Assembly: GCF_029360725.1 (NCBI RefSeq)
Contig: NZ_JARKMY010000010.1
Span: 248,001 to 312,000, forward strand
Reading direction: 5' to 3'
Source of the DNA: Chryseolinea sp. H1M3-3
Lineage (GTDB): Bacteria; Bacteroidota; Bacteroidia; Cytophagales; Cyclobacteriaceae
Length of the DNA: 64,000 bases
Numbering within the stretch: the first letter of the stretch is position 1; every line of letters starts with the position of its first letter. Position numbers and translations under genes: made by a program. Positions 25,890 through 58,195 of this stretch are shown here, in pieces. The notes under the pieces are model-generated. The model saw only the letters and a program-made list of their open reading frames with translations, did not search any database and was not told the origin of the DNA.

Positions 25890-26645
25890 TAACGTGCATG
25901 GGGGCGATGATGTTAAATGCAGGTCAAACTGCAGCGCCGCTGGGGGGCGCAGAGAGAGAAAGAGCTACGCAAAGGTTCGTCGTTCATCTTCTCTGCGATT
26001 TCTCTCAGCGGGCATTCTCGCAGTGTGCTCTGCGCTTATTTGCATTAATGGCTCGACGTTCGGCCCTTTAAATTTCTGAGGTTCGCCTTAATGTTTCTTT
26101 TACCGCAGTGAACGCCGAGAAATGCACGCAGAGAAAAATGCACGCAGAGAGACTCGATTAAAATCTCTGCGATTTTCTCAGCGGGTATTCCCTCAGTGTG
26201 CTCTGCGCTTATTTGCATTAATGGCTCGACATTCGGTCCTTTAAATTTCTCGGGTTCGTCTTAATGTTTCTTTTTACCGCAGTGAACGCCAAGAAATGCA
26301 CGCAGAGAAAAATGCACGCAGAGAGACTCGATTAAAATCTCTGCGATTTCTCTCTGCGGGTATTCCCTCAGTGTGCTCTGCGCTTATTTGCATTAATGAC
26401 TCGACGTTCAGTCCTTTAAATTTCTCAGGTTCGTCTTAATGTTTCTTTTTACCGCAGTGAACGCCGAGAAATGCACGCAGAGAAAAATGCACGCAGAGAG
26501 ACTCGATTAAAATCTCTGCGATTTTCTCAGCGGGTATTCCCTCAGTGTGCTCTGCGCTTATTTCCATTAATGGCTCGACGTCGGTCCTTTAAAGTTCTCA
26601 GGTTCGTCTTAATGTTTCTTTTTACCGCAGTGAACGCCGAGAAAC
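25890..26645. repeat. Tandem repeat array 2 (unit about 174 bp, four copies)
   Basis: Units begin at TCTCTGCGATT at 25990, 26164, 26338 and 26513 (spacing 174, 174, 175). The lead-in (GTGCATGGGGGCGATGATG to CTACGCAAAGGTTCGTCGTT) is homologous to that of array 1, and the homology extends upstream into the last six codons of the secreted-protein gene. The array ends abruptly at about 26643, where the ATTCGGTGTTC palindromic repeat begins (GAACGCCGAGAAACAAGGAA). Confidence 0.92.
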
Positions 26646-27020
26646 AAGGAATATCGAATATCGAATGATCGGAGACTGCTTCGGGATTTTTATCTTAAGA
26701 AAAAATTCTGACAATTTGATGATAACTGATGCTCTAGCGTCAAACGTGCATACGTTAAGACCGCCCCTTCATCATTCCTTGTTCCCGCCTACCGGCGGGC
26801 AGGCTTGTTCGATATTCGGTGTTCATTTTTTTTAATTATCACAGGGCAAAAGAATATTGAACAAGGAATATCGAATGATGAAGTACAATGCTCGAGCTAA
26901 ACGCGATGTTTCTCAAAATTCGCAGTCATATCTACATTGAACCTGGCACTGCACATCAAGACCGACCCTTCATCATTCCTTGTTCAGTGTTCGATATTCG
27001 GTGTTCTTTTTAATCGATTA
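26640..27020. repeat. Two units of the ATTCGGTGTTC palindromic repeat family
   Basis: Shows the unit in the orientation opposite to that at 39131: GGAGACTGCTTCGGGATTTT, TATCTTAAGAAAA, CGTCAAACGTGCATACGTTA, CCCTTCATCATTCCTTGTTC, an inserted CCGCCTACCGGCGGGCAGG palindrome, and GTTCGATATTCGGTGTTC. A second, partial unit ends next to the WYL regulator's stop codon. Confidence 0.85.
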
Positions 27021-37654: not shown

Positions 37655-37765
37655 TTGTCGATGTTCGGTGTTCGATATTTAATTAGAACACCGAATAACG
37701 AACAAGCCTGCCCGCCGGTAGGCCGGGAACAAGGAAGGATGAAGTGTCGGTCTTAACATGCGATG
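37655..37765. repeat. One unit of the ATTCGGTGTTC palindromic repeat family
   Basis: TGTTCGGTGTTCGATATT, GAACACCGAATAACGAAC, an AGCCTGCCCGCCGGTAGGC insert and GAACAAGGAAGGATGAAG, followed by the TCTTAACATGCGATGCC tail. The remaining 245 bp up to the DUF2911 gene contain no gene. Confidence 0.8.
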
Positions 37766-38009
37766 CCAGATCCAAATTTTTTTCGTTCGCCGCGAATTAC
37801 AGATTAACACCTACGCCTTAAAATCGAGCATAGTTCATCATTCGTACGTGGTGTTCCTTGTTCGACATTTACCTACGACTCTGTCGCCAGCGGACGTTTT
37901 TGTCCTGAAACGGACGCTACGCCGCTTTGAATGTGTATTAAACAATGGTTTTGATAACATAGACAAACATTGTTCCTTGGCAAACTATTTGACTTAATGC
38001 GTCAACAAT

Positions 38010-39122
38010 ATGCCTATGAACAAAAAATTACTCATTACCGCCTGCTTAGTCTTTGCTGCTACGATTGCCTTTTCACAAATCACTTTTCCTCCCGGAGGTC
38101 CAAACCGGAAAGCTTCCGTGTCACAACAGATAGGCATTACCGATGTGCGCATTGATTATAACCGTCCCGTTGTGAATGGCCGTGAAGGCAAGATCTGGGG
38201 CGAATTAGTTCACTATGGTTTTGCAGACCTCCACTATGGCACCAGCAAAGCTGCGCCGTGGCGCGCAGGCGCAAATGAAAACACGACTTTCACTTTTAGT
38301 ACTGATGTCTTTATCGAGGGCAAACCACTGAAGGCTGGAAAATATGGATTCTTTATTGCCATGGGACCTGAAAAGGCGACTTTAATTTTCTCTAACGTCA
38401 GCACAGCTTGGGGAAGCTTTTATTACGACAGTAAAGACGATGCACTTCGAGTCGATGTGCCAGTGGTAAAACTTTCAGAGAGCATAGAACGCTTAACCTA
38501 TGTTTTCAGTGACGAAACTGATGATGCAGCAATTGTTTCATTGCAATGGGAAAAGGTGAAGATACCGTTCAAAATTTCAGTCGATCTTGACAAAGAAATG
38601 ATCGCCGCGTACAGGAGAGAATTTAATTCGGGTATCTTTTATCGTTATTGGCAAAACATGCAAATGGCAGCGAATTATTGCCTCACGCACAATATCAACA
38701 TTGATGAAGCAATCGGCTGGGCGGAACGATCCATCAATACTTACTTCGGGGAAAAGAACTTTTCCACGCTTTCAACCTATGCCGGCTTGCTGGAAAAAAA
38801 GGGAATGAAAGCAAAAGCCGATTCTGCTATGCAGTTAGCCTACCCGTTAGCTACCACCCTTCAACTATATTCATATGGCAGAGGGCTGGAAAACCAAAAG
38901 CGAAATGCTGAAGCGATAGAGGTTTATAAAAAATCGTACGACAAAAATCCCAGTGATCTTTATTCGTTGATGGCTATTACGCGTGCCCATTCATTGCAAG
39001 GAAAAAACAAGGAAGCGCTGAAGTATGCAAACCAGACACTCTCGTATGCGAAGGATACTTATTTCGCCAAATATGCGGAGGAAGTGCTTGCTAATCTGAA
39101 AGAAGGAAAGCCAATTAACTAA
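38010..39122 (+). CDS. Exported DUF2911 protein with C-terminal TPR-like helices
   Basis: 370 residues. The ATG at 38016 (MNKKLLITACLVFAATIAFSQ) gives the cleaner signal peptide, two codons inside the longer form. The DUF2911 domain spans about 25-205 (KASVSQQIGITDVRIDYNRP, GKIWGELVHYG, PWRAGANENTTFTFSTDV, GKPLKAGKYGFFIAMG, WGSFYYDSKDDALRV). From about 215 the chain is helical with TPR-like units (IDEAIGWAERSINTYFGEKN, AEAIEVYKKSYDKNPSDLYS, KEALKYANQTLSYAKDTYF). Function unknown; DUF2911 proteins are exported and common in Bacteroidota. The gene ends directly at the palindromic repeat array. Confidence 0.87.
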   Translation: MPMNKKLLITACLVFAATIAFSQITFPPGGPNRKASVSQQIGITDVRIDYNRPVVNGREGKIWGELVHYGFADLHYGTSKAAPWRAGANENTTFTFSTDVFIEGKPLKAGKYGFFIAMGPEKATLIFSNVSTAWGSFYYDSKDDALRVDVPVVKLSESIERLTYVFSDETDDAAIVSLQWEKVKIPFKISVDLDKEMIAAYRREFNSGIFYRYWQNMQMAANYCLTHNINIDEAIGWAERSINTYFGEKNFSTLSTYAGLLEKKGMKAKADSAMQLAYPLATTLQLYSYGRGLENQKRNAEAIEVYKKSYDKNPSDLYSLMAITRAHSLQGKNKEALKYANQTLSYAKDTYFAKYAEEVLANLKEGKPIN

Positions 39123-39130
39123 TTAAAAAT

Positions 39131-39835
39131 CCATCGAAGCAGTATCCGATCATCATTCGATATTCGGTGTTCCTTGTTCGATATTCCCAATTCATCAAGA
39201 AACGGCCAAGAAAAACCTAAGGAACACCGAATATCGAACACCGAACAAGGAATGATGAAGTGGCTGTCTTAACGTATGCACGTTTGACGCTATAACATCA
39301 GTTATCATCAATGTGTCAGAAGTTTTTCTTAAGATAAATATCCCGAAGCAGCATCCGATCATCATTCGATATTCGGTGTTCCTTGTTCGATATTCTTTTG
39401 ATCCAAGTTCAATCTTCAAAAAAATGAACACCGAATATTGAACACCGAACAAGGAATGATGAAGGAGCGGTCTTAACGAGTGTACGCTTTGCGTTAGAGC
39501 ATCATTTCTCATCAACGTGTCAAAAGTTTTTTAAGATAAAAATCCCGAAGCAGTCTCCGATCATCATTCGATATTCAATATTCCTAGTTCGATATTCTTT
39601 TCATTGTTCAATTTTTCAAAATGAACACCGAATATCGAACACTCCTGCCCGCCGGTAGGCCGGGAACAAAGAAGGATGAAGGGGCGGTCTTGACGTGCCA
39701 GGAGTTTTCTTAAGCTAAAAATCCCGAAGCAGTCTCCGATCATCATTCGATATTCGGTGTTCCTTGTTCGATATTCTTTTGTTCCTTGTTCGATATTCTT
39801 TCTCTTGTTCGATATCCCATTTCATCTGGTTTTCC
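39131..39835. repeat. Palindromic repeat array, left half (four units)
   Basis: Units begin with ATCCATCGAAGCAG or ATCCCGAAGCAG at 39131, 39341, 39541 and 39721. A full unit reads: CGATCATCATTCGATATTCG, TGTTCCTTGTTCGATATTC, a variable spacer of 20-40 bp, GAACACCGAATATCGAACAC, CGAACAAGGAATGATGAAG, TCTTAACG with a variable stretch, and TCAGAAGTTTTTCTTAAGAT. Left and right parts are imperfect inverted repeats. The spacer of unit 1 (39185-39220) reproduces the last codons of the four-helix-bundle gene that follows the array. Confidence 0.9.
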
Positions 39836-39907
39836 GGACAATGATATTAATTGTCAAAAGTCGCATTTGTCTAGTTTTACAGCTGTGCACAAAAATTCTT
39901 TGCCGTT

Positions 39908-40303
39908 ATGAAATTTGACTTAGAAGAACGACTAATAATCTTTGCAGTTTTGATTCTTGAGATTACGGAAAAACTTCCGGAGACAAAAGGAAGCAATCAT
40001 CTGTCAAGTCAACTTGTACGAAGTGGTACAGCTCCTGCTTTGCATTATGGCGAAGCTCAATCGGCAGAATCTCGTAAAGACTTCATTCACAAGATGAAGA
40101 TTGCGTTAAAAGAAATGAGAGAATCATTAATTTGTTTGAAGATCATCGAGCGGAAAAAATATTTAGGCGATCAGTCTATTCTGCATTCGCTCACAGAATT
40201 AAATGAACTCATTTCAATATTTGTAAAAAGCATAGAAACCGCCAAGAAAAACCTAAGGAACACCGAATATCGAACAAGCTTGCCCGCCGGTAGGCGGGAA
40301 TAA
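39908..40303 (+). CDS. Four-helix-bundle (S23/IVP-like) protein inside the palindromic repeat array
   Basis: 131 residues, predicted to be four antiparallel helices; SSQLVRSGTAPALHYGEAQ followed by DFIHKMKIALKEMRESLICL is the signature of the four-helix-bundle family related to the 23S rRNA intervening-sequence protein and to Avd of diversity-generating retroelements. These proteins form pentameric, positively charged rings that bind nucleic acid. The true domain ends near KSIETAKK; the last residues NLRNTEYRTSLPAGRRE are translated repeat (GGAACACCGAATATCGAAC plus the CCCGCCGGTAGGC insert). The gene thus lies within one unit of the repeat family and depends on it for its 3' end. No reverse transcriptase or rRNA is nearby. 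Confidence 0.85.
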   Translation: MKFDLEERLIIFAVLILEITEKLPETKGSNHLSSQLVRSGTAPALHYGEAQSAESRKDFIHKMKIALKEMRESLICLKIIERKKYLGDQSILHSLTELNELISIFVKSIETAKKNLRNTEYRTSLPAGRRE

Positions 40304-41077
40304 GGAATGATGAAGGAGCGGTCTTAACGAGTGTACGCTTTCCGCTAGTACATCGGTTATCATTAAAGTGTCAGAAATTTTTTTCTTAAGATAAAAATCC
40401 CGAAGCAGCATCCGATCATCATTCGATATTCGGTGTTCCTTGTTCGATATTCTTTCCCTTGTCCAATGTCAAAATGAACACCGAATATCGAACACCGAAC
40501 AAGGAATGATGAAGTGGCGGTCTTAACGTATGCACGTTTGACGCTATAACATCAGTTATCATCAATGTGCCAGAAGTTTTCTTAAGATAAATATCCCGAA
40601 GCAGATCCGATCATCATTCGATATTCGGTGTTCCTTGTTCGATATTCTTTTTATCTAAGTTCAATCTTCAAAAAAATGAACACCGAATATTGAACAAAGC
40701 CTGCCCGCCGGTAGGCCGGGAACAAGGAAGGATGGAGGATCGGTCTTGACGTGCCAGAAGTTTTCTTAAGCTAAAAATCCCGAAGCAGCATCCGATCATC
40801 ATTCGATATTCGGTGTTCCTTGTTCGATATTCCCAATTCATCAAGAAACCGCCAAGAAAAACCTAAGGAACACCGAATATCGAACAAAGCCTGCCCGCCG
40901 GTAGGCCGGGAACAAGGAATGATGAAGGATCGATCTTAACGTATGCACCCTTGCGTGAGCATCATTTATCATCAACGTGCCAGAAGTTTTCTTAAGCTAA
41001 AAATCCCGAAGCAGTATCCGATCATCATTCGATATTCGGTGTTCCTTGTTCGATATTCTTTTCCTTGTTCGATATTC
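40235..41077. repeat. Palindromic repeat array, right half
   Basis: Starts inside the four-helix-bundle gene (GAAACCGCCAAGAAAAACC at 40235) and continues with units starting ATCCCGAAGCAG at 40398, 40593, 40776 and 41006. The unit at 40776 has a spacer of 42 bases (40845-40886) identical to the 3' end of the gene. The last unit stops at the stop codon of the MHS transporter. Several units carry the AGCCTGCCCGCCGGTAGGC insert within GAACAAGG. Confidence 0.9.
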
Positions 41078-42359
41078 AATTTTTCTTTCCTTCCATCAAC
41101 CTTTTTAATACCAGCAATGCCACGATACTAATTGCTGCTCCAACCGATAAATAATATCCGACATACTGTAGGCCATAAGTTGTGGCAAGTGTGGTGGCCA
41201 GGTAAGGCGTGAGCGATGCACCTAAGATACCGGCAAGTGTAAAGCACAATGACGCGCCCGTGTAACGAACTTCTGCTGGAAAAATATCGGCCAACGCCGT
41301 GCCTACTGTACCATAGTTCAGACCCATCAACAACATGCCGGTAGACTGGAACACCACGATGATGAGAAGGCTGCCGGTGCTGAAGAACGGCGCGAAGAAC
41401 AAACCAAAGATGAAAATGCCGATGCTCGAAAAAAATAGCATATTGTTTCTTCCTTTGCTGTCGGCTAACAGGGCGGAGAGCGGAACACCTAATGCAAAGA
41501 ATAGCATGGAGATCATCTGTGCGATCAGAAAACTATCTTTCGGATAGTGCAACGCGGACGTTCCCCAGCTCAATGAAAACACGGTGACGATATAAAATAA
41601 CTGAAAAGTAGTGATAGTCGCAGCGGTGCCCAGAAGGATTGCTTTTGTATGGTTAGCAAAGACAGCAACAACGGGTACTTTCACACGGGCTTGACTGTTC
41701 ATAACTTTAATAAAATCCGGCGTCTCGGTTATTTTCAGTCGTATGTAAAGTCCAACCCACACAAGCAGTGCGCTGGCTACAAAAGGGATACGCCAGCCAT
41801 AGCTCAGAAATTGTTCATCATTCAGTGTTTTGCTAAGAATAAAAAATGTTCCGCTCGACAATAGAAAACCAATTGGAGCACCTAACTGTGGAAACATGCC
41901 ATACCATGCCTTCTTATGTGCGGGCGCATTTTCTGTCGCCAGCAAGACGGCACCTCCCCATTCGCCTCCTAGTCCAAGTCCTTGTCCAAAACGAAACACT
42001 GCTAACAAGATTGGCGCGGCAATTCCGATGCTGTTGTAAGAAGGTAGAAGTCCGATGGCTACAGTGGAGGGCCCCATCGTCATTAACGCAGCCACAAGCG
42101 TGGTCTTACGCCCTTTGCGGTCACCAAAATGACCGAAGATTACGGCGCCAAGCGGTCTGGCAAAAAAGGCCAAGGCAAAGGTAGCTAATGATGCCAGTGT
42201 GGAGGCAACGGGGTCGCTGGCCGGAAAAAACAACTTTGGAAATACCAGGACCGCAGCGGTAGCGTAGATATAGAAATCAAAAAATTCTATTGTGGTTCCG
42301 ATTAGGCTGGCGGCTAGAATGCGGGTGGCTGGATTGGTTGGGGGTATTTGTTGATTCAT
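41076..42359 (-). CDS. MFS transporter of the metabolite:H+ symporter (MHS) family
   Basis: 427 residues with twelve predicted membrane helices. Family marks: SLIGTTIEFFDFYIYATAAVLVFP in helix 1, the motif GHFGDRKGRKTT between helices 2 and 3, and FGQGLGLGGEWGGAVLLATENAP in helix 4. MHS proteins (ShiA, ProP, KgtP-like) import organic acids or osmolytes with protons; the substrate here is unknown. The stop codon at 41076-41078 lies inside the terminal ATTCAATTTT of the repeat array, so the array abuts the gene exactly. Transcribed alone. Confidence 0.9.
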   Translation of the reverse strand: MNQQIPPTNPATRILAASLIGTTIEFFDFYIYATAAVLVFPKLFFPASDPVASTLASLATFALAFFARPLGAVIFGHFGDRKGRKTTLVAALMTMGPSTVAIGLLPSYNSIGIAAPILLAVFRFGQGLGLGGEWGGAVLLATENAPAHKKAWYGMFPQLGAPIGFLLSSGTFFILSKTLNDEQFLSYGWRIPFVASALLVWVGLYIRLKITETPDFIKVMNSQARVKVPVVAVFANHTKAILLGTAATITTFQLFYIVTVFSLSWGTSALHYPKDSFLIAQMISMLFFALGVPLSALLADSKGRNNMLFFSSIGIFIFGLFFAPFFSTGSLLIIVVFQSTGMLLMGLNYGTVGTALADIFPAEVRYTGASLCFTLAGILGASLTPYLATTLATTYGLQYVGYYLSVGAAISIVALLVLKRLMEGKKN

Positions 42360-42454: not shown

Positions 42455-42725
42455 GATGTATCCAATTGAATATTGAATATCGGACACCGAACAAGCCTGC
42501 CCGCCGATAGGCGGGGAATGATGAAGGACCGGACTTAACGTGTGCACGTTTTGCGATAATGCATCAGTGATCAACGCGTCAGAATTTTTTTTAAGATAAA
42601 AATCCTGAAGCAGTATCCAATCGTCATTTGATATTCGAAATTCCTTGTTCGATATTGTTTTCCTTGTTCGATATTCAATTTGAACACCGGATATTGAACA
42701 AGGAATGAATGACGGGGATACGATG
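42455..42725. repeat. Degenerate palindromic repeat units upstream of the hydrolase gene
   Basis: TTGAATATTGAATATCGGAC, ACCGAACAAGCCTGCCCGCC, GAATGATGAAGGACCGGAC, TTTTTTTAAGATAAAAATCC, TGAAGCAGTATCCAATCG and GATATTCGAAATTCCTTGTT all match the family but with more mismatches than 39131-41077. At 42730-42775 a relic of the GGCGCAAG REP family follows. The region between 42360 and 42865 has no gene. Confidence 0.8.
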
Positions 42726-57929: not shown

Positions 57930-58195
57930 AGCGTCATTCATCATCAATATTCCTTGTTCGATATTCTTTTCCTTGCTCAATTTTTCAAATGAACACCGAA
58001 TATCGAACAAAGCCTGCCCGCCGGTAGGCCGGGAACAAGGAAGGATGAAGGAGCGGTCTTGACGTACCAGAAGTTTTCTTAAGATAAAAATCCCGAAGCA
58101 GTATCCGATCATCATTCGATATTCGGTGTTCCTTGTTCGATATTCTTTCCCTTGTTCGATATTCTTTCCCTTGTTTGATATTCTGAATTGTAACG
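57930..58195. repeat. Palindromic repeat units between the antiporter and DoxX-like genes
   Basis: GAACACCGAATATCGAACA with the GCCTGCCCGCCGGTAGGC insert, GAAGGAGCGGTCTTGACG, AGTTTTCTTAAGATAAAAAT, CCCGAAGCAGTATCCGATCA and three terminal repeats of TTGTTCGATATTCTTTCCC that end at the stop of the DoxX-like gene at 58203. Confidence 0.88.

Follow-up and report, generated by a model that had tools for sequence, protein, structure and literature searches.

MITEs and REP/RAYT systems are, by definition, short palindromic elements that form clusters and internal-deletion derivatives. In the 23S rRNA intervening sequence (IVS) of Coxiella, as described in the part of PMC4990558 available to us, an S23 open reading frame (ORF) lies in a stem that is cut by RNase III, with tandem GACAGAT heptads before the ORF whose number varies between strains; the same part of that paper, citing Lin et al. 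2006, gives the S23p of X. campestris as a homopentameric torus. Insertions in CPR rRNA encode an S23/IVP protein, and short ORF-less versions of them exist (PMC11270868, accessible portion). For heptads elsewhere, the accessible text of PMC4476775 reports that the heptad class of the Nostoc P6b stem was replaced between lineages and states its origin as unknown, and PMC4692102 and PMC4679880, in their accessible parts, describe some Xanthomonas heptads as rearranged into inverted repeats. The accessible texts on Coxiella, CPR and the Nostoc intron do not tie heptads to S23 genes as a general rule, and among the papers listed by literature searches with most subscription journals outside their reach, none joins S23 or four-helix genes to heptads as a rule.

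The heptad array of the window and its S23-type gene

We analysed a stretch of 64,000 nucleotides from the genome of Chryseolinea sp. H1M3-3 (the window, G000:C2:248001-312000), and coordinates given without a contig name count from its first letter. A dense array of repeats at 39149-41076 is flanked by a DUF2911 gene (38010-39122, plus strand) and by an MFS transporter gene (41076-42359, minus strand). The array arms, 38-45 nt each, consist of tandem heptads GAWNNNN (GAACACC GAATATC GAACACC GAACAAG GAATGAT GAAG) that read TTC in the opposite orientation, and the array opens and closes with a TTC arm. The terms GAA arm, TTC arm, canonical, and type A and type B linker were coined in this analysis. 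The features of the window are listed below, with the basis of each call in brackets.

26852..27006, no strand: further copy, consisting of GAA arm, linker and TTC arm (chain count)
37657..37873, no strand: degenerate copy, with a linker of the second kind by eye (word matches)
39149..39193, minus strand: TTC heptad arm, 7 anchors (chain count)
39199..39221, plus strand: relic of the gene's 3' end in unit 1, one mismatch (letters, genome search, conservation)
39222..39259, plus strand: GAA heptad arm, 6 anchors (chain count)
39358..39395, minus strand: TTC heptad arm, 6 anchors (chain count)
39426..39463, plus strand: GAA heptad arm, 6 anchors (chain count)
39560..39597, minus strand: TTC heptad arm, 6 anchors (chain count)
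39623..39681, plus strand: GAA heptad arm broken by a GC-rich palindrome (letters, word matches)
39739..39776, minus strand: TTC heptad arm 5' of the gene, 6 anchors (chain count)
39815..39907, plus strand: gene leader, with a homologous leader in the sister genome G004, where a GAA arm precedes it; that arm is absent here (alignment)
39908..40303, plus strand: predicted S23/IVP-family four-helix-bundle gene, 131 aa (PF05635, TIGR02436, AF2 model)
40258..40315, plus strand: GAA heptad arm over the gene's end, broken by a GC-rich palindrome (letters, word matches)
40415..40452, minus strand: TTC heptad arm, 6 anchors (chain count)
40476..40513, plus strand: GAA heptad arm, 6 anchors (chain count)
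40610..40647, minus strand: TTC heptad arm, 6 anchors (chain count)
40678..40736, plus strand: GAA heptad arm broken by a GC-rich palindrome (letters, word matches)
40795..40839, minus strand: TTC heptad arm, 7 anchors (chain count)
40845..40867, plus strand: relic of the gene's 3' end in unit 2, exact (letters, genome search, conservation)
40868..40926, plus strand: GAA heptad arm broken by a GC-rich palindrome (letters, word matches)
41021..41058, minus strand: TTC heptad arm, 6 anchors, array end (chain count)
42470..42715, no strand: degenerate copies past the transporter gene (word matches)
57943..58145, no strand: further small arm cluster (chain count)

The window contains 16 chains of at least 4 GAW anchors (20 local shuffles gave 0.05 on average) and 30 occurrences of TTCGATATTCGGTGTTC at up to 3 mismatches, against 0.25 expected; these excesses exclude chance as the source of the window repeats. 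At the gathering score no Rfam family was matched anywhere in the window, and the array holds no transposase ORF, its sole family-matching ORF being the S23-type gene. A GC-rich palindrome (CCTGCCCGCCGGTAGGC(C)GGG) splits GAA arms at 39644-39664, 40280-40299, 40700-40720, 40890-40910 and 37707-37727, a related palindrome (CCTGACTGCCGTCAGGCAGG) is present in G004, and this palindrome is perhaps a second mini-element nested inside the first. At 26300-26645, directly beside a heptad unit, lie tandem copies of another repeat, which by eye measures about 175 nt and contains CGCAGAGA / TCTCTGCG pairs.

The window protein scores 51.1 bits against PF05635 (cut-off 33.8) and 75 bits against TIGR02436 (cut-off 24). 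Its AF2 model (pLDDT 93.8) matches the structures 2rld and 2gsc (Xcc0516), with chains A-E of both among the listed matches, as well as Avd 4dwl (TM 0.81 by target, with a weak E-value) and Avd in DGR particles (8ubb, 8ub7 and 8ube, with weak E-values and TM of about 0.8 by target). Judged by these matches, the predicted protein belongs to the S23/IVP family and has an Avd-like fold, as the earlier note had proposed. The title of a solved relative's structure reads unknown function. In the alignment of 36 sequences made for folding, composed of the window protein and of 35 from the best 80 of 193 loci, residues E49, D58, H61, K62, K68, E69 and E72 are invariant and E54 is nearly so.

Gene-less units and the order of the arms

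In two gene-less units of the array, at 39131-39340 and 40776-41005, the TTC arm is followed by a leader fragment joined to GAAAC(C/G)GCCAAGAAAAACCTAAG, and then by the GAA arm. GAAAC(C/G)GCCAAGAAAAACCTAAG encodes the ETAKKNLR of the gene's end, apart from a single change in unit 1. Aligned over 16 columns to the leader of the gene, GATATTCCCAATTCATC shows one gap and one mismatch, and 40845-40886 is identical to 40235-40276 over 42 bases, comprising 23 of the gene (40845-40867) and 19 of the arm. Across the best 80 of 193 homologous loci the encoded C-terminus, IETAKKNL, is conserved (T111 in 74/80, A112 in 72/80, N115 in 61/80). When the own genome was searched with 39800-40300, no second gene copy was found, and only these two units matched the coding end, all other matches being to the arm. 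Since both units hold 23 nt of the conserved 3' end of the gene, they are internal-deletion products; the direction from gene to relic follows from the conservation of the C-terminus in homologues and from the fact that just two units reach the coding end. The earlier note had reported both units and had explained them by deletion from a parent at 39721-40397. Its coordinates and letters were right, the 42-base identity and the one-mismatch relic were both verified, and the conserved C-terminal codons and the leader fragment in both units speak for deletion; the proposed parent is not supported in this form, the window copy being best read as rearranged and G004 showing the order GAA arm, leader, gene.

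This order was read from several places. A GAA arm, a linker of about 95 nt and a TTC arm follow each other in a single copy, G000:C6:249900-250083 (G000 being the genome of the window), in the copy at 26852-27006 and in the C1:371-372k array, and the remaining array edges have mixed order. In G004 the orthologue of the window gene is cut by a contig end, and a GAA arm and a 124-nt leader precede it. As the order with the GAA arm first holds in a single copy, in the C1 array, in G004 and in most relatives, 39721-40397 is best taken for a gene between neighbouring elements, and a gene in the loop of a hairpin was rejected as the natural unit of the window. The window copy is best read, on its sequence, as rearranged, with the gene sitting in the gap between two neighbouring hairpins, and a like arrangement is seen by eye at loci L120 and L096 and in part at L119 and L076. 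At L119 the homologue is broken by a stop and lies, by eye, between direct heptad-arm copies, which in addition overlap the stop of the gene before it.

The window leader, which adjoins a TTC arm, unlike the G004 leader behind its GAA arm, aligns to the G004 leader with a local score of 39, against 9.8 +/- 1.65 in 300 shuffles. The gene-less linkers of G004 have their first 60 nt or so in common with the leader of that genome: among ten linkers compared with it, six beat all 300 shuffles (z up to 14), two tie the highest shuffle and two show no resemblance. With z up to 9, type B linkers of G000 match those of G004. Type A linkers, which are the most frequent kind in the window array, have no similarity to the G004 leader or linkers and were rejected as leader derivatives for this reason. 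The comparison thus indicates that some linkers look like gene-deleted leaders and that others do not.

Inverted heptad arms around homologous genes

The best 80 of 193 confirmed stretches in the genome collection served as homologous loci, which by record title come from Bacteroidota, Neomarinimicrobiota, Cloacimonadota, Verrucomicrobiota, Planctomycetota, Chlorobiota, KSB1, Ignavibacterium and unnamed bins. Identity at lag 7 was 0.38/0.374 within 200 bp of the gene and 0.264 farther away (80 upstream, 74 downstream and 571 far segments), with peaks also at 14 and 21, and the raised identity at these three lags is confined to about 180 bp either side of the gene. On the gene strand, a GAW chain stands upstream in 65 and an inverse chain downstream in 60 of these best 80 of 193 loci, against a background of 1.8-2.6% of 851 segments. 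Both chains are present in 57/80, a strict count that agrees with the earlier note's view of the gene as carried by palindromes and withstands the refutation that the note had set, namely a gene usually lacking the repeats in related genomes. Arms in the inverse order are additionally present in 13/80. Chains have 6 anchors as their modal length (29/86 upstream, 35/78 downstream) and are longer in 6 of 164 cases.

A sample of 73 Bacteroidota genes matching PF05635 (30 loci as given plus 43 genes on 40 stretches chosen among the matches listed, best first) has words that differ among loci and a mean identity that rises at lags 7 and 8. Single flanks exceed 97.5% control periodicity in 28 upstream and 29 downstream cases of 73, mostly at lag 7 (17 and 19) or lag 8 (9 and 9). 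Arm matching on 70 loci, short or N-containing flanks being dropped, gave the pair of one locus a median score of 15.5 versus 8.0 for swapped arms; the own pair surpassed 95% of swaps in 53/70 and 99% in 37/70, and none of 143 shifted control intervals reached the median of 15.5. In the window family the own pair surpassed 95% of swaps in just 30 of 76 loci, because the arms there share words between loci. Ten of 20 matching plasmid homologues were read (seven from Cyanobacteriota and one each from Chloroflexota, Bacteroidota and Spirochaetota): heptads are seen by eye in all ten, the computed best lag is 7 on both sides in six and on one side in four, and own arms beat all swaps in five, the other five being Nostocales with mutually similar words. 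The own genome has four other PF05635 genes, and arms are clear at one of them (period 8), weak at another and missing at two; PF05635 genes occur in 71 of 99 sampled Bacteroidota genomes, in up to 15 copies. The rule that the gene lies between inverted heptad arms is strong but not universal, and it is this general architecture that counts as the real finding.

The arms are related to each other as the proteins are. Similarity of arm 6-mers correlates with protein identity (rho 0.334, 3160 pairs) and does so across phyla, with labels taken from record titles and each unlabelled bin treated as its own group (rho 0.355, 1880 pairs); neither value was reached in 500 permutations. The far-flank controls gave a rho of 0.079 (37/500) and, across phyla, of 0.109 (18/500). 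In a protein tree of 67 of the best-80-of-193 loci and the window, which is limited by its small number of columns and by the many MAG bins, supported branches join members of different phyla, one of them (100/97) uniting Bacteroidales with Neomarinimicrobiota and KSB1. Gene and arms appear to move together between phyla.

At several loci the neighbourhood was also recorded. PF05635 genes with differing arm words recur in gaps of apparent fatty-acid oxidation operons (L161, L165, L168, L170, L174, L186 and L205; L206, L214 and L223), where, as read from translations, a thiolase-like ORF follows them or they separate a thiolase-like ORF from an acyl-CoA-dehydrogenase-like one. On plasmids of two phyla (L231, L237) a PF05635 gene with heptads lies between helicase and DNA methyltransferase genes, with one extra hypothetical gene in this interval at L231, and is perhaps inside a defence operon. 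On a Pseudanabaena plasmid (L238) such a gene with heptads lies between csx2 and cas1.

Of the six genomes of the genus that were compared, just G000 (49 unit pieces) and G004 (41 matches, mostly units) carry units, and both of them bear the gene. Three congeners (G001, G002, G003) have homologues of the flanking genes but nothing that matches unit or gene, and in G005 nothing matched at all; one of the two gene searches behind these absences failed, too, to pick up the G004 gene that is cut off by the contig end. The DUF2911 and MFS genes are not adjacent in congeners where both were found, no array follows DUF2911 by eye in G001, G003 or G004, these comparisons reached no exact empty site, and no target-site duplication is seen by eye at hairpin copies. 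The window subfamily is present in 44 of 296 Bacteroidota genomes (E 1e-18). The word GAATATCGAACAAGG occurs in 15 genomes, 11 of them with the gene, versus 33 with the gene among the 281 lacking the word (p 2e-7), and its reversed control gave one match. On reading the fetched sites, true arrays with this exact word are found in 11 of the 296 genomes, with the gene in 10/11 versus 34/285 of the others (p 2e-8); inside family f40 the counts are 8/24 versus 0/11 (p 0.03), all p values at genome level ignoring kinship between genomes. The genome G309 has arrays and no gene.

Explanations of the element and its place among known systems

The gene is probably, though far from surely, part of a small mobile element made of a heptad arm, a leader, the S23/IVP gene and an inverted heptad arm. 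Its mobility is strongly suggested, an exact empty site not having been found, and the gene, its arms and the gene-less leftovers point to an overlooked family of tiny mobile elements; against this, no transposase, nuclease or reverse transcriptase is linked to the gene. The best reading is that of an intergenic relative of 23S rRNA intervening sequences that spreads with its protein acting in trans. The protein would form a pentameric ring like Xcc0516 and Avd, and the heptad array that this ring may bind could be RNA or single-stranded DNA, perhaps with one GAW anchor per subunit. Such a ring would bind an arm of five heptads and a tail; that heptads and subunits both number five is no more than suggestive. 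Gene-less derivatives would be copied in trans, with copying and joining presumably carried out by an enzyme encoded outside the element. The known 23S rRNA intervening sequences could then be copies of such an element inside rRNA, where we propose that excision of the stem from the transcript lets them survive. Recombination among the tandem copies of the window may have put the gene between two hairpins and made the two deletion products. We can only tentatively go further, and lean somewhat against doing so, in supposing that inverted GA-phased heptad arms with an S23-type ring protein are bacteria-wide minimal mobile elements lacking a transposase or reverse transcriptase of their own, that their traces are rRNA IVSs, cyanobacterial intron heptad stems and the heptameric repeats of Xanthomonas, Nostoc and Beggiatoaceae, and that the ring reads about five heptads per arm.

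TRAP, an RNA-binding regulator, is the model for an explanation in which nothing is mobile: the arms would be regulatory sites, arising by mutation and slippage, through which a TRAP-like protein controls its own and other mRNAs at heptad arrays just after the stop codon. This bears on the arrays at the ends of other genes. From 46 listed GAATATCGAACAAGG sites, 33 were fetched as 32 stretches (13 G000 sites being left out), which after removal of four in coding sequence and one non-array left 27 gene-less arrays. Of these, 12 start -5 to +15 nt from a same-strand stop codon, as the regulatory explanation would have it, and 19 lie within 150 nt of one. The modal array length of 6 anchors also suits such sites, as do arrays or remnants kept at an orthologous gene end across two genera: among 12 genomes this end has five clear GAW arrays, six cases of other words or remnants by eye and one with none, a pattern that replacement, local turnover (slippage, conversion) and movement fit equally. 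We nevertheless regard a purely regulatory role as unlikely, given that gene-less units hold coding relics or resemble the leader, that G000 and G004 have tandem unit clusters, that the gene appears to travel with its arms between phyla, and that another array is absent by eye from the orthologous gene end in all five congeners. Replication slippage and template switching might generate heptads and palindromes by themselves, with PF05635 genes tolerated nearby or hitchhiking. Words that differ between related genomes at one gene end are in keeping with this, and heptameric tandem repeats are reported to be over-represented in bacteria (PMC4692102, accessible part). It is an improbable account, as periodicity is restricted to about 180 bp each side of the gene, arm complementarity at the observed median is absent from all shifted intervals, and arm composition tracks protein kinship between phyla.

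Enzymes that could move the units in trans were sought in the genomes that carry them. With its fold like Avd 4dwl and the Avd of DGR particles, the protein could be the Avd-like helper of a reverse transcriptase encoded elsewhere, as in a DGR-like retroelement, and PF00078 is matched in the array-bearing genomes G337, G165 and G309 of other genera. It is also matched in the unit-free G002 and G003, while neither of the two unit-rich genomes, G000 and G004, gave a match; a resident reverse transcriptase is therefore disfavoured, and was rejected, as the mobiliser there, and a DGR-like origin seems very improbable to us. Still less credible is that the units are REP-like palindromes moved by RAYT or Y1 transposases. 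Y1_Tnp genes are present in G000 (2) and G004 (4), one of them about 3.6 kb from the unit cluster on C6, but they also occur in the unit-free G001-G003 and G005 and have no match in the array-bearing G309. At 8 of 15 Y1 loci, read in four unit- or array-bearing genomes, there is no heptad chain of at least 4 anchors at the gene, only palindromes of other kinds or none, and REP/RAYT mobilisation was rejected on these grounds. Four of the Y1 transposase genes (L358, L359, L363, L364), which we take to be RAYT-type, lie by eye near other REP-like palindromes that differ between genomes. The earlier note's interpretation is in this way kept in part: deletion, carriage by palindromes and the lack of a transposase in the array hold, the parent unit is not supported in the form proposed, and copying via RNA by a resident reverse transcriptase is disfavoured in G000 and G004.

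Returning to the mobile element, its general rule, a gene between inverted heptad arms that vary by locus, offers a concrete substrate to test. It would connect rRNA intervening sequences, the Avd fold and several unexplained heptad repeats, and it raises the question of how an element spreads with no known recombinase. The element resembles MITEs in having terminal inverted repeats and deletion derivatives of a larger element; it differs from them and from REP/RAYT systems in that its only protein is a four-helix bundle, with no transposase, and from REP/RAYT in that palindromes of its kind flank none of the 8 Y1 genes read in 4 genomes. The fold is like that of Avd in diversity-generating retroelements, which differ in having a linked reverse transcriptase, a partner that the window gene lacks. 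Heptameric repeats of Xanthomonas (GGGAATC), Nostoc (GGGGAYT) and Beggiatoaceae (TAACTGA) are tandem and mostly intergenic according to the accessible parts of PMC4692102 and PMC4679880, in which the term 'four helix' is absent from both and 'S23' from the latter. The P6b stem of the Nostoc trnL intron, built of degenerate complementary heptads TDNGATT and NNTGAGT, is alike in design; it lies inside a group I intron, the accessible text of PMC4476775 contains neither 'S23' nor 'four helix', and a link of such stems to S23 elements is only proposed. The 23S rRNA IVSs of Coxiella, Leptospira and CPR, as the available parts of their descriptions have it, share with the element the protein family, an ORF in a stem loop (here found in relatives, the window copy being rearranged) and ORF-less short forms; by contrast, the element described here is intergenic, at a site between DUF2911 and MFS genes with no Rfam match to rRNA, and is dispersed, with many gene-less copies and heptad arms on both sides.
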